Source of the DNA: Candidatus Peregrinibacteria bacterium
GTDB lineage: Bacteria; Patescibacteriota; Gracilibacteria; UBA1369
DNA length: 38,324 bases
Assembly: GCA_003153355.1 (NCBI GenBank)
Contig: PLYH01000003.1
Span: 1-38,324 of the forward strand
Direction: 5' to 3'
The notes beneath the pieces were generated by a model that saw only the letters and a program-made list of their open reading frames with translations, was not told where the DNA came from and searched no databases. Numbering within the stretch: position 1 is the first letter of the stretch; the number at the start of each line of letters is the position of its first letter. Position numbers and translations under genes: made by a program. Below are positions 28,277 through 34,007 of this stretch, piece after piece.

Positions 28277-29632
28277 TTATTTTTTCTTTTTTTTGTTGAG
28301 CGAGCCGATCTCCTTTTCGATTTTCTTCAGCCAATCCAGGGCCTGCTTTTTGGTTTTGATTTCGCCGCCGAGTTGTTTTTCGCGGATTTTTTGAAGGATG
28401 AATCCGATCTTTTTTCCAGGTTTTAATTTCATGGCCTTCATGACGTCTTCGCCGTGAAGAAGCGGAGGTGGTGGTGCCGGCATACTTTGTAAATCGTCGT
28501 GATAGAGCTGGGCGATCTGGTCGATGATTTCGGTGTGCGGCGGCGTGGTGCCGCGCGCGTCGGCGTAAAAAAGATCGAGGAGGTTTTTGAAATAGACGTG
28601 ATGGAACCACACCAGCCGCCGGCCTTTTGGCATTTGCAAAAGCGGCATCACCATCATGTGATGTTCAATGAGCCAGCAGACTTCATCGATAAAACGCTTA
28701 TCAAATTTCAAACGTATCAAAAGTTTTCGGGCGATGTCGCGCGAGGCGCGGTCGTGCGTATCAAAACGGATTCTTTCTGCGAGTTTGAATGTTTCCGGTT
28801 TTCCAACATCATGCAACAACGTAGCCCAGCGCACTGGCAGCGAAGCCGTTTCCGGCAGAGCTTTCAGCGAATTCATGGCATGCGTCCACACATCCCCTTC
28901 CTGGTGATATTTGTACGGCTGAGCAACACCTTTCATTTTGGCGATCTCCGGAAGGATGATATTCAAAATGCGCGTATCTTCCATGTCCTGAAAAGCGTTC
29001 ACTGCATAAGGACTCATCATAATTTTATTGAGTTCATCGCGGATGCGTTCATTGGAGACTTTATCTATCAACACTGAAGCGTGTTTCAAGACCGCCTGAT
29101 AGGTCTCCGGCTCGTATTGAAAGTTTAATGTGTTCTTCAGCCGGATAGCGCGAAGGATGCGCAAATGGTCTTCCAGAATGCGCTCAGAGGGCTTTCCTAT
29201 AAAGCGGATTAAACGCGCTTCCAGGTCTTTCTGGCCGTCAATATAATCAAGGACCTTATCTTCGATGGGATCATAAAACATGCCGTTAATGGTGAAATCA
29301 CGGCGTTTGGCGTCCTCCTGTGCGTTGGTGAAGATGACGGCGTCGGGTCTTCTTCCATCGCTGTAGCCTGCGTCTGAACGGAATGTTGCCACTTCAAAAT
29401 AATGGCCGTTTTTTATGGCCATCATGACTCCGAACTTTTTGCCGATCGGCAGAATTTTTTCCAGTTCGCCTTTCAGCGCGGATTCGATTTCGTCGGGTTT
29501 GGCGCTGGTGACAATGTCGTAATCTTTTGGTTTGATGCCGAGCAGCATGTCGCGGACGCAGCCGCCGGCCCAGTACGCTTCAAAGCCCGCTACTTTTAAT
29601 TTTTTGATGATCTCAATGGAGGTTGGCTGCAT
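28277..29632 (-). CDS. cca: CCA-adding enzyme / tRNA nucleotidyltransferase with HD domain
   Basis: This 451-residue class II nucleotidyltransferase builds or repairs the 3' CCA of tRNA. It has GGCVRD (23-28), the DYD catalytic pair (Asp 37 and Asp 39), RRDFTINGMFYDP (about 109-121), the RNA-binding 'GKPSERILEDHLRILRAIRL' helix, and an HD domain (LLHDVGKPET, about residue 268; LIEHHMM). The C-terminal part is helical and ends in poly-Lys. Poly(A) polymerase activity cannot be excluded by sequence. The start codon lies inside one arm of a perfect 10-bp inverted repeat, and an extended -10 box sits in the loop, so expression may be leaderless or controlled by that structure. Confidence 0.93.
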   Translation of the reverse strand: MQPTSIEIIKKLKVAGFEAYWAGGCVRDMLLGIKPKDYDIVTSAKPDEIESALKGELEKILPIGKKFGVMMAIKNGHYFEVATFRSDAGYSDGRRPDAVIFTNAQEDAKRRDFTINGMFYDPIEDKVLDYIDGQKDLEARLIRFIGKPSERILEDHLRILRAIRLKNTLNFQYEPETYQAVLKHASVLIDKVSNERIRDELNKIMMSPYAVNAFQDMEDTRILNIILPEIAKMKGVAQPYKYHQEGDVWTHAMNSLKALPETASLPVRWATLLHDVGKPETFKLAERIRFDTHDRASRDIARKLLIRLKFDKRFIDEVCWLIEHHMMVMPLLQMPKGRRLVWFHHVYFKNLLDLFYADARGTTPPHTEIIDQIAQLYHDDLQSMPAPPPPLLHGEDVMKAMKLKPGKKIGFILQKIREKQLGGEIKTKKQALDWLKKIEKEIGSLNKKKKK

Positions 29633-29654
29633 GGCAATATTGTACCATGCAGCC
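29625..29654 (-). promoter_or_regulatory. Perfect inverted repeat spanning the cca start codon
   Basis: GGCTGCATGG (29625-29634) and CCATGCAGCC (29645-29654) are perfect complements around a 10-nt loop. On the minus strand the second arm contains the cca ATG (29632-29630). The loop holds TACAAT after TGG, an extended -10 placed so that transcription could start on the A of the ATG. The stop of the MFS gene is 12 nt upstream. No T-tract follows, so it is not a standard terminator. Confidence 0.65.
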
Positions 29655-29665
29655 TCTGTTACTGG

Positions 29666-31402
29666 CTAATGCGCAACGGCCGGGGCGCCTTCCTGCGCAT
29701 CAGGAAAATCTTCGGCGTCATCATCTGGTGAAACTTCCACTTTTTTGGCAGATTTCGGCGATAATCTTACGTTCGGAAGCATGAACGATGCAAAGAATCC
29801 GAGGATGGCAAAGAAGATGCCGTAGCTTACTGAATTTTTGTTGGCGTTGGCGATGGCTTGTTCGCTGACGTTATGAATGTCGGCCTGAATCGAGGTCGGC
29901 AGTTTCATTTTGATCTGAGCGCCGCCGCTGAATTCAACGTTTGAAGTTTGTGATGAAACGGTCTGTTCAAGATATGGCTTGAGCAGGTTTGGAATGTGCT
30001 GGTTGTTCTGAATGCCGATGGTGATGTTGCCGGCAAGCGCGGTTAACATGGCTGCCCCGATGATCGCTGAACCAAAGGAAGATCCCATCTGACGGAGCGT
30101 GCTGTTCACGCCGGAAGCTTCACCGGCTTCACTGACAGGAACGGCGGAAAGCGCGAGGTTACTGACCTGAGCCATAATGAAGCCCATGCCCATACCATAG
30201 AGCGCGAGGCCGGGAGCAAACGTCCAGGCATCGGCATTCACGCTGAAACTCTGCTGAATAATAATCATGGCCGCAATGTCGAGCAGAAGCCCTAATTGCA
30301 CCAACCGTTTCGGAGGAATGATTTTGCTGATAAAAGCCGAAAGCGGGGCGCAAATGAGCAATGAAATCGAAAGCGGGAGCAGCGCGAGGCCTGTATTGAA
30401 TGCATCTAAACCTCTTACTGATTGCAGAAATACCGGGATCGAAAAGATGATGCCTGCCTGGCCCAACGACATAGTGGTGGTCGTCAGCATGCCTGAGCTG
30501 AACTGACGGTTCTTAAAGAGCTTCATGGAAACCAAAGGCTTTTTGCGTGCTTTTTCCAGATGCAATTCCCAGGCAATGAACAGTGAGATAATAATCGCAC
30601 CGAGCGCGATGGCAAAAGGAGTAACGGAATAGCCCCAAAGATCAAGGGTCTGTCCAAAAATATTGAACGCCTGAGTGGCTTTCCACCAGCCGTAGGTTGA
30701 AGCTTCAATCACTCCGAAAACGATTGAAAGCAAGCCTGTTGCGGAAAGAAATACACCGATCCAGTCCAGGGTCGGTTTTTCTTTGGACGGTTCGTCTTTA
30801 TTGATAAGAATTGAGCCGATTAACAAAAGAATGGTAACAAACACGTTAATACGGAAACCCCATCTCCAGCTGAAATTTGTAGCTAAATAGCCTCCTAAAA
30901 TCGGACCGATTGCTGCTCCGCCGGCGGCTACTCCGCCCCAAACGCCAAATGCCAATGCGCGGTCGCGTCCTTTAAAGTTGGCGACAAGTAAAGCTGAGGT
31001 CGCAGGCATCATTAATGCTGCGCCGATACCTTCAATGATGGATTCGCCGATGAGAAGCATCGGGAAATTGGTGCTTATAGATGCGATAAATGATCCGACG
31101 GCAAAAATGATCGCGCCAAGCATGAACATTTTTTTGCGGCCGAACATGTCGCCCAAACGTCCGCCGGTCACCGTAAGTGCCGCGAGCGTGAGCGAATAAG
31201 AGGTAATGACCCACTGAAGACTTTGGATGTTGGTGCCAAGGTCACGGATGATGTTGCCGAGGGAAACGTTGAGCAAAGTTGTATCTATCACAATGATCAA
31301 TACGGCAAAACTCATCACGACGAGGCTTCCCCATTTACGGAAAGCGGATTGAGGAGCTTGCTCATTTTCTATAATGGTCGTTGATTCGTTCATCTTTTGC
31401 AT
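29666..31402 (-). CDS. DHA2-type (14-helix) MFS drug exporter
   Basis: This 578-residue major-facilitator transporter has the pattern of drug:H+ antiporters of the DHA2/EmrB-QacA group. A cytoplasmic N-terminus leads to 'LIIVIDTTLLNVSL' in helix 1 (motif D1), motif A 'GGRLGDMFGRKKMF' between helices 2 and 3, motif C 'GGAAIGPILGGYLA' in helix 5 and roughly 14 hydrophobic segments. There is a large outer loop near residues 455-515 and an acidic C-terminal tail. It lies 17 nt after the MarR gene, so the two form a regulator-exporter operon exporting an unknown toxic compound. Met 1 or Met 4 may be the start. Confidence 0.92.
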   Translation of the reverse strand: MQKMNESTTIIENEQAPQSAFRKWGSLVVMSFAVLIIVIDTTLLNVSLGNIIRDLGTNIQSLQWVITSYSLTLAALTVTGGRLGDMFGRKKMFMLGAIIFAVGSFIASISTNFPMLLIGESIIEGIGAALMMPATSALLVANFKGRDRALAFGVWGGVAAGGAAIGPILGGYLATNFSWRWGFRINVFVTILLLIGSILINKDEPSKEKPTLDWIGVFLSATGLLSIVFGVIEASTYGWWKATQAFNIFGQTLDLWGYSVTPFAIALGAIIISLFIAWELHLEKARKKPLVSMKLFKNRQFSSGMLTTTTMSLGQAGIIFSIPVFLQSVRGLDAFNTGLALLPLSISLLICAPLSAFISKIIPPKRLVQLGLLLDIAAMIIIQQSFSVNADAWTFAPGLALYGMGMGFIMAQVSNLALSAVPVSEAGEASGVNSTLRQMGSSFGSAIIGAAMLTALAGNITIGIQNNQHIPNLLKPYLEQTVSSQTSNVEFSGGAQIKMKLPTSIQADIHNVSEQAIANANKNSVSYGIFFAILGFFASFMLPNVRLSPKSAKKVEVSPDDDAEDFPDAQEGAPAVAH

Positions 31403-31419: not shown

Positions 31420-31875
31420 TTATGAATGTGAGCGGTCCGCGGTTTCAAGGTTGTTCAGCACTTTTCGGGGTATGGTGATCATGGCATCGAGCTCTTTGTC
31501 GCTGATTGTTTCAAAGGTCTTGGCAATGCGTTCCATATGATTTTTTTTAAAGGTTTCAAATTTCTTCTTTCCATTGTCCGAAAAATTGATGTGTACGATT
31601 CTGCGGTCTTTTTTATCGTGACTCCTCTGGATAAATCCGGCGATCACCAGCCCTTCGATCATCTGGGTTGCTGCGCTGCTGGTGATGCCCATTTTTGAGG
31701 CGACGTCTTTCACAGTCAGTTCTTTTCCCTGCGCGATCGCATAAAGAATATGCACTTGGGAACGGTTTAAATCGTACTTCTGGAAAAAACTGTCTTTTCT
31801 TGTTCCCAGGGCTTTTTGCAGAGACATAAAGCCTTCAAACATTTCCTGGATTTTTTCCTTGCGTGATTGAGTCAT
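31420..31875 (-). CDS. MarR-family transcriptional regulator
   Basis: This 151-residue winged-helix repressor of the MarR family has the helix-turn-helix at about residues 52-72 (LTVKDVASKMGITSSAATQMIEGLVIAGFIQR) and the wing 'SHDKKDRRIVHINFSDNG'. MarR proteins dimerise and release DNA on binding small phenolic or toxic ligands. It is first in the operon with the MFS exporter. Twin 13-bp palindromes overlap its own perfect promoter, so autorepression relieved by an export substrate is the likely logic. Confidence 0.95.
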   Translation of the reverse strand: MTQSRKEKIQEMFEGFMSLQKALGTRKDSFFQKYDLNRSQVHILYAIAQGKELTVKDVASKMGITSSAATQMIEGLVIAGFIQRSHDKKDRRIVHINFSDNGKKKFETFKKNHMERIAKTFETISDKELDAMITIPRKVLNNLETADRSHS

Positions 31876-31893
31876 AATTTTTACTGAGGATAT

Positions 31894-31933
31894 ATTAGGG
31901 ACTAATTATATTAGTTACTAATGTATTTGTCAA
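31894..31933 (-). promoter_or_regulatory. Perfect sigma-70 promoter with two MarR-type operators
   Basis: The minus strand reads TTGACA (31933-31928), a 17-nt spacer and TATAAT (31910-31905). Two matching palindromes, ATTAG-TTA-CTAAT (31910-31922, inside the spacer) and ATTAG-GGA-CTAAT (31894-31906, over the start site), have centres 16 bp apart. This is the expected arrangement for repression by a MarR dimer. The start point is about 23 nt before the ATG at 31875. Confidence 0.85.
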
Positions 31934-32020: not shown

Positions 32021-32842
32021 ATGATTGAAGAAGTCCGGAAGGCGTATCAGGAAAAAACGATCGGTTTGGATCAGCATCTGCAGCGGAGCGAAGACCAGTT
32101 GGTTTACAACAGGTTCGCCCACGAAGTTCATCAGCATCTTATTAAAACACGGCGAGCTTTGCAGGGATTTTTCGATTCCCTTGAAATGCTGCCTTCGAAC
32201 TACAAAACAGCCGGAAACGTGACCGAATTGGCGCGAGCGCACCAGCATAAAAAAAAGGATGAGGATCAAAAAATTGATCTGGTGGTGTTTTTCACTGCGA
32301 TCCAGAAAGCGGCTTCAACGATCGTAAAAGGAGGACTTCATTTGCGTCAGCAAAATCTTTATAAGCCGACTAAGGGCGATGCCGATCTTGTGGACGATCT
32401 TCTGGAGGAGGGCAAAAAAATCGTTGTGTTCTGCGAAGAGCATGGCCTTCCACCCCATGACGCGGAATTTTTAAGACGTACGTTGGCGACCATGGGCTAT
32501 GAAGGTTTCAAAAAACTTCTTGAAGATCCGGAGTTTGAGGTTTTACGGAAAAAACCCGTTCTTTTTCAGCAGGCTGTCCTCCATCAACAGGGAGATCCTG
32601 TGGCTTTTTTGAGAAGTAAAACGAATTTTGTAAAAAAAGGCGCTGAAGAACTGAAGGCCTGCGGGAAATTCGATGACCTCGCCAAAGGCAGCGACGAAAT
32701 TTACATCGAGGCTCTGCTGCATTACGCGGACAATAAACGTTTCAGCAATCCGCACGATTATCTTGTTTATCTCCGCAATGAACGTAAAAGACGTGCCGAG
32801 AAAGGGAAAAGGAAAAAGCGCAGCGCCGATATTGAGTGGTAA
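32021..32842 (+). CDS. Helical orphan protein (273 aa)
   Basis: This 273-residue cytoplasmic-looking protein has no signal peptide or membrane helix. It is helix-rich, with frequent His, Gln and Lys (for example 'QHLQRSEDQLVYNRFAHEVHQHLIKTRRALQGFF') and a strongly basic C-terminus (RNERKRRAEKGKRKKRS), suggesting nucleic-acid contact. I do not recognise a family. It has its own promoter, and tsaD follows after 31 nt. Confidence 0.7.
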   Translation: MIEEVRKAYQEKTIGLDQHLQRSEDQLVYNRFAHEVHQHLIKTRRALQGFFDSLEMLPSNYKTAGNVTELARAHQHKKKDEDQKIDLVVFFTAIQKAASTIVKGGLHLRQQNLYKPTKGDADLVDDLLEEGKKIVVFCEEHGLPPHDAEFLRRTLATMGYEGFKKLLEDPEFEVLRKKPVLFQQAVLHQQGDPVAFLRSKTNFVKKGAEELKACGKFDDLAKGSDEIYIEALLHYADNKRFSNPHDYLVYLRNERKRRAEKGKRKKRSADIEW

Positions 32843-32858
32843 TTACCGCACAGGAATA

Positions 32859-32867
32859 TGGTAAACT
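32859..32867 (+). promoter_or_regulatory. Possible leaderless promoter of tsaD
   Basis: TGG followed by TAAACT (32862-32867) is an extended -10 with six bases between it and the ATG at 32874. Transcription would begin on or beside the A of the start codon. No convincing -35 box is seen, so this is tentative. Confidence 0.35.
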
Positions 32868-32873
32868 GGGCGC

Positions 32874-34007
32874 ATGAGAATTTTAGGCATTGAAACTTCG
32901 TGCGATGAAACATCTGCGGCCGTTGTGGAAGACGGTGTGCGGGTTTTGAGCAACGTGATTTTTTCCCAGGTGCCGCTGCATCAGATTACAGGCGGAGTTG
33001 TCCCTGAAGTCGCGGCTCGCGAGCACGTGGTGAAAATTATGCCGGTGGTTGAGGAAGCTATAGAGATCGCGGCCAAAAATTTGCGTACAAAAAAAAGCTG
33101 GCGTGAACAAAAGTTTTCGATGCAAGATATAGACGTCATCGCAGTGACACAGGGGCCCGGCTTGCTGAGTTCGCTGGTGATCGGGACGACGGCTGCTTCG
33201 ACGATTGCGACGGTTTTGGGCAAACCCTTGATCGGAGTGAATCACATTGCCGGACATATTTATGCGAACTGGCTGAATCGTTCACGCGACCACGTTGAGT
33301 TTCCGTGCGTTGTTTTAACGGCTTCGGGAGGGCATAACGAACTTGTCCTGATGCGCGAGCATGACCGGTTTGAATTGATCGGCGAAACTTTGGACGACGC
33401 GGCCGGCGAGGCTTTTGACAAAGTCGCGCGCCTGCTTGGGATGGGTTATCCCGGCGGCCCGCAGATTGCGCGGGCGGCGCACGCGGGAAACGCTTTATGC
33501 TATTCGTTCCCCAAAGCGTACATGGGCGAAGACAATTTTGATTTCAGTTTTTCAGGGCTCAAAACTGCGATGCTGAATTTCATAAAAGAAGAACATCGCG
33601 CGAACAACATTTTGAGCGAGACGTTTATTGCCGATTGCTCTGCTTCGTTTCAAGAAGCCGTGTGCGGGGTTCTTTCCGATAAACTTCTGCATGCTTCACA
33701 AAAATTCCGCGCGAAAACCATCATCATTTCCGGCGGAGTTTCGGCGAATCAGCGGCTGCGCGCAATGATCGCCGAGAAACTTGAAGGCGAATATTTTCAC
33801 GACCATAAAGGACACAAAGTTACGCTGCGCACGAAGCCGGTTTTCGATTTTCCCGCTGACATTTCTTTCTGCACGGACAACGCGGCGATGATCGCGGGGG
33901 CTGCGTATTTCCATGTCCAAAGATCTGGCGGGCTTGCCAAGTTTTCTTCCAGGAAAGCAACTGCAGTTATTTTGGGCGATCCGAATTTACGGCTCTATTC
34001 AAAATAG
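32874..34007 (+). CDS. tsaD: tRNA threonylcarbamoyladenosine transferase TsaD
   Basis: This 377-residue member of the Kae1/TsaD family transfers the threonylcarbamoyl group onto A37 of ANN-decoding tRNAs, working with TsaB, TsaC and TsaE. Hallmarks are MRILGIETSCDETS, VPEVAAREH, TQGPGLLSSLVIG, metal motif HIAGH (His 124 and His 128), ASGGHNELV, DDAAGEAFDKVARLLG, FSFSGLKTA, SGGVSANQRLR and the terminal CTDNAAMIA. It is about 40 residues longer than usual. One insert, rich in Lys/Arg, lies near residues 68-83 and another near 311-330. The start has no Shine-Dalgarno sequence. Confidence 0.97.
   Translation: MRILGIETSCDETSAAVVEDGVRVLSNVIFSQVPLHQITGGVVPEVAAREHVVKIMPVVEEAIEIAAKNLRTKKSWREQKFSMQDIDVIAVTQGPGLLSSLVIGTTAASTIATVLGKPLIGVNHIAGHIYANWLNRSRDHVEFPCVVLTASGGHNELVLMREHDRFELIGETLDDAAGEAFDKVARLLGMGYPGGPQIARAAHAGNALCYSFPKAYMGEDNFDFSFSGLKTAMLNFIKEEHRANNILSETFIADCSASFQEAVCGVLSDKLLHASQKFRAKTIIISGGVSANQRLRAMIAEKLEGEYFHDHKGHKVTLRTKPVFDFPADISFCTDNAAMIAGAAYFHVQRSGGLAKFSSRKATAVILGDPNLRLYSK

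Follow-up and report, generated by a model that had tools for sequence, protein, structure and literature searches.

A perfect inverted repeat over the cca start codon, next to a conserved and probably leaderless promoter, in a Peregrinibacteria genome

The window analysed here, a stretch of 38,324 nucleotides from a Candidatus Peregrinibacteria bacterium (contig PLYH01000003.1), carries on its minus strand the cca gene (28277-29632), whose ATG lies at 29632-29630. The 451-aa product contains the Pfam domains PolyA_pol, PolyA_pol_RNAbd, HD, and tRNA_NucTran2_2, which identify it as a tRNA nucleotidyltransferase; the top NCBIfam model, CCA tRNA nucleotidyltransferase, scores below its cut-off. 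This ATG is the earliest possible start in the frame, and the resulting N terminus, MQPTSIEI, agrees with that of relatives. Upstream of cca, on the same strand, are located the gene of a DHA2/EmrB-type MFS drug efflux transporter (29666-31402; TIGR00711 above cut-off), with its stop 33 nt from the cca ATG, and the gene of a MarR-family regulator (31420-31875; Pfam MarR above cut-off), the presumed repressor of the marR-MFS pair. The promoter region of the pair includes, at 31890-31928 on the minus strand, a near-consensus promoter, TTGACA-N17-TATAAT, overlapped by two palindromes of the ATTAGT..CTAAT type that also overlap each other, ATTAGTAACTAAT and ATTAGTCCCTAAT. The two palindromes are likely a MarR operator of autoregulatory function, unrelated to the repeat at cca described below. 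The plus strand carries a gene for a 273-aa protein (32021-32842) with no Pfam or NCBIfam match and, downstream of it, tsaD (32874-34007).

Immediately before cca lies an extended -10 element, TGGTACAAT (29639-29647, minus strand), the hexamer of which, TACAAT (29639-29644), is separated from the ATG by six bases; a weak -35 match, TAGCCA, is found 18 nt upstream. No Shine-Dalgarno sequence precedes the ATG, where the DNA reads TACAATATTGCC. Transcription is predicted to start at the ATG or no more than one or two bases away. The initial annotation had already placed the RNA start at the ATG, and, with the start itself still a prediction, the placement of the element proves to be conserved in relatives and recurrent in the genome. 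Among 53 cca genes of the order, the window's own included, a -10 hexamer stands at a spacing of 6 in 15 and at a spacing of 7 in nine, against a background of about 1.6 per position elsewhere upstream. Many of these elements are extended (TGGTACAAT, TGATACAAT, TGCTATCAT), and in a second, looser group the -10 lies farther off, at about 20-26 nt, which would leave a short leader. The statistics for the window's own genome (G000) were drawn from 534 kb taken as stretches (C1, C2:1-200000, and C3), with gene starts called simply as the first ATG of long open reading frames, which adds noise to the spacing figures; there, a -10 at spacing 6 precedes 23 of 377 starts (2.5 expected from internal ATGs), and seven extended -10s occur at this spacing where 0.3 would be expected. 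An internal control is provided by tsaD, whose start, TGGTAAACT-GGGCGC-ATG, shares the extended -10 and the spacing of 6 but lacks a hairpin. It is also worth mentioning that this tsaD element (32850-32874, plus strand) is present though the preceding gene ends 31 nt away, which suggests promoters inside apparent operons.

Shine-Dalgarno motifs are not enriched in the genome: GGAG, GAGG, or AGGA is found at -17 to -4 in 14 of 377 starts, compared with 15 and 22 in control intervals (534 kb), and no enrichment was seen in small samples of four relatives from the order. The 3' end of the 16S rRNA in the window's genome keeps CCTCC; Candidatus Peribacter riflensis has been listed as Shine-Dalgarno-scarce, in a class lacking CCUCC (PMC10783764). 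A T at -1 is present in 61% of the ATG starts and in 18% of internal ATGs of the 534 kb, as well as, more weakly, in the four order relatives, and could possibly act as a start-context signal in place of a Shine-Dalgarno sequence. Since this sequence is not enriched genome-wide, its lack at cca discriminates little as a mark of leaderless translation. Across the order, -10 hexamers accumulate 6-7 bases ahead of the start of cca, and the genome shows the same peak, which makes it very probable that cca has a transcript of its own, begun from the extended -10, and that this mRNA is translated with no leader or almost none. A -10 abutting cca was probably already the arrangement of the order's ancestor.

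The cca start also lies within an inverted repeat at 29625-29654. As the initial annotation had described, the repeat is perfect, with 10-bp arms of which the second on the minus strand holds the cca ATG. On the plus strand the arms occupy 29625-29634 (GGCTGCATGG) and 29645-29654 (CCATGCAGCC), complementary at 10 of 10 positions and separated by 10 nt; read along the minus strand, the order is GGCTGCATGG, the loop TACAATATTG, and CCATGCAGCC. The first arm of the minus strand (29645-29654) thus falls in the spacer between the MFS gene and cca, and the second (29625-29634) comprises the start codon and codons 2-3. The extended -10 lies in the loop with its TGG within an arm. Some of the pairing thus comes at no cost from the promoter and the start codon, the TG of the element being paired with the C preceding the start and with the first base, A, of the ATG. 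The sequence ATGCAGCC, which encodes the coding start MQP in the second arm, occurs also in one relative (L015) that has no first arm.

The stem predicted in RNA comprises 12 pairs, of about -21 kcal/mol, and the arm stem, with 70% GC, sits exactly over the cca start. The local folding energy at this start is -22.7 kcal/mol, compared with a mean of -3.9 (sd 3.8) over 54 cca starts; of 391 start regions in the genome, that of cca has the second lowest folding energy, a point counted against coincidence. With 33 nt between the genes and no intrinsic terminator found by the terminator scan on the cca strand from the MFS stop (29666) to the cca ATG, read-through RNA from the MFS gene into cca is plausible, and the earlier claim that such RNA would sequester the start is borne out by the predicted fold, where the ATG is unpaired with a probability of about 0.001 (about 0.1%). 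This arrangement has the exact geometry of a selected read-through filter like that of phage T4 gene e, for which there is published precedent (PMC3014915): the long, drug-inducible RNA, made from the strong marR-MFS promoter with its MarR-like operator, would hide the cca AUG, and RNA starting from the loop promoter, without the first arm, would be translated constitutively. Such a filter is nevertheless unlikely. In the leaderless RNA predicted for cca the AUG is still partly paired in silico (unpaired 0.06-0.21), there is no known reason for harm from extra Cca, and the comparison with relatives, set out next, speaks against it on two further counts.

The initial annotation had itself taken a lack of the upstream arm in relatives as grounds for refuting its reading, and this arm is present in none of the 53 relatives. 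No inverted repeat longer than 6 bp spans the cca ATG in any of these genomes, the window's own being the sole case among 54. In the closest relative (G005, 68% identical in amino-acid sequence across 265 residues) the cca start reads TGATATAATCATCACATGCAACCAACATCC, i.e., TGATATAAT-CATCAC-ATGCAACCAACATCC, with the promoter and its spacing as in the window; the first residues, MQPTS, are shared and the first codons are nearly the same, and there is no repeat. The comparison covers relatives at about 68% protein identity and beyond, a search of the genus for further genomes having returned only the window's own.

The neighbourhood differs in relatives as well. Five relatives were examined, and in these cca and tsaD are divergent without an intervening MFS gene; the MFS protein has one close homologue (64%) in 79 genomes of the order. 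Both observations make it most likely that, in the window's lineage, the marR-MFS pair was inserted between cca and tsaD, its divergent neighbour in the ancestral state. In the genome with the close MFS homologue (G063), the DNA past the MFS stop, on reading, bears no such repeat, and no cca match is found there. If the pair was inserted in this lineage, read-through into cca, and any filter of it, would be recent, and a probably recent MFS neighbour is in itself an argument against a selected filter. The proposal that the hairpin separates drug-inducible read-through from constitutive cca expression is therefore not supported, with the first arm in 0 of 53 relatives and an MFS-cca neighbourhood that is apparently lineage-specific. 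What the proposal could still describe is a recently evolved cellular analogue of T4 gene e, in which a leaderless start would be hidden solely in RNA that reads through from the efflux operon, itself drug-inducible and newly inserted. Were this true, a switch of the gene e type would insulate an essential tRNA-processing enzyme from induction of the efflux operon; such an origin is considered quite unlikely.

When arms of 10 bp or longer and loops of 3-20 are required, the 534 kb contain 43 perfect repeats, compared with 7-14 (about 10) in shuffled sequences. As judged by inspection of the list, the excess consists mostly of A/T-flanked terminators, and for this reason the non-terminator inverted repeats of such size are near background; the chance expectation is about 0.75 per 38-kb window. 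When the coding sequence and the promoter of cca are kept fixed and the remaining upstream sequence is shuffled, arms of at least 10 bp arise in 4 of 10,000 trials (p about 4e-4), so that the repeat is individually unlikely at its place, which was counted against coincidence. Over the 391 gene starts, about 0.1 repeats with arms of at least 10 bp spanning the ATG are expected by shuffling and two are seen, the second of which is A/T-rich, with a doubtful start call; scaled to the whole genome the expectation is roughly 0.3. Among the 42 starts of the genome that have an adjacent -10, cca alone has a repeat longer than 7 bp over the start. The repeat is locally unusual, yet not beyond chance across a genome scan. 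Even with three mismatches allowed, the 30-mer has no second copy in the genome, which rules out a repeat family or a mobile palindrome.

This single copy also bears on a role of the repeat at the level of DNA, as an operator on which a dimeric regulator would occupy both arms and block the -10 between them. The dyad flanks the -10, and the arm centres are 20 bp, i.e., two helical turns, apart. However, there is no second genomic copy at up to three mismatches, the half site at no more than one mismatch has one other non-genic match in the 534 kb, and the repeat is not conserved in relatives; the palindrome used by the MarR encoded nearby is most likely another one, ATTAGTNNCTAAT-like. An operator of this kind is highly improbable, and identity of the repeat with the MarR operator was rejected, the marR promoter bearing the different, ATTAGTAACTAAT-type palindromes. 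Less far-fetched, and still improbable, is an element of the 3' end of the MFS mRNA, suggested by a strong stem that lies 11 nt past the MFS stop and would terminate transcription or protect the 3' end. The bases after the stem (AACCTCCATTG) form no U tract, which rules out an intrinsic terminator, in keeping with the negative terminator scan on this strand, and the other long hairpins of the genome are mostly terminators flanked by A/T.

The whole is probably best explained as follows. An extended -10 abutting the coding sequence would direct a leaderless cca mRNA beginning at or next to its AUG; the marR-MFS efflux pair would have been inserted later upstream, between cca and the divergent tsaD; and the perfect 10-bp repeat would have arisen in this lineage by coincidence, or through a local mutation that perfected a quasi-palindrome, possibly by template switching, rather than being an element maintained by selection. 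As a side effect, wherever RNA reads through from the MFS gene, the repeat would reduce the translation of cca. Since Shine-Dalgarno sequences are not enriched in this genome, structure at a start could matter more than usual in it, a consideration that was counted against coincidence. Read as a regulatory hairpin, the repeat would insulate cca neatly, but such a reading goes beyond the evidence, and the case is a warning that chance can produce short inverted repeats that are perfect and sit at start codons. What holds, more modestly, is a conserved extended -10 promoter of probable leaderless type before cca across a Peregrinibacteria-related order, in a genome with no detectable Shine-Dalgarno signal.

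Two known systems invite comparison. In phage T4, gene e (lysozyme), soc, 49, and I-TevI have starts sequestered in hairpins whose upstream arm overlaps a late promoter (PMC3014915, PMC2988022). As in the filter reading of cca, which the initial annotation had proposed, the long transcript hides the start, and a promoter in the hairpin region makes an RNA without the 5' arm; in the long RNA a stable helix likewise takes in the start codon, which for cca is a matter of predicted folds. The promoter geometry required for an RNA without the 5' arm fits at cca and its placement is conserved, with the RNA start predicted. The T4 genes, however, have Shine-Dalgarno leaders, similar structures are kept in related phages, and the effects on translation were measured, whereas the cca hairpin is found in 0 of 53 relatives and is known here from sequence and predicted folds. 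In the leaderless genes of Deinococcus-Thermus the -10 motif lies about 6-7 bp upstream of the open reading frame (PMC12340547), and leaderless genes with such an adjacent -10 have been found more widely in bacteria, including Actinobacteria (PMC3160421). Common to these genes and cca are a -10 about 6-7 bp before the start, usually with no clear -35, the lack of a Shine-Dalgarno sequence, and an expected RNA 5' end at the start codon. The window differs from that set in belonging to a Peregrinibacteria-related genome, where a minority of genes have this arrangement, several of the -10s are extended, and the transcription start is predicted; with cca, a further candidate is added to the bacterial groups that use leaderless genes.
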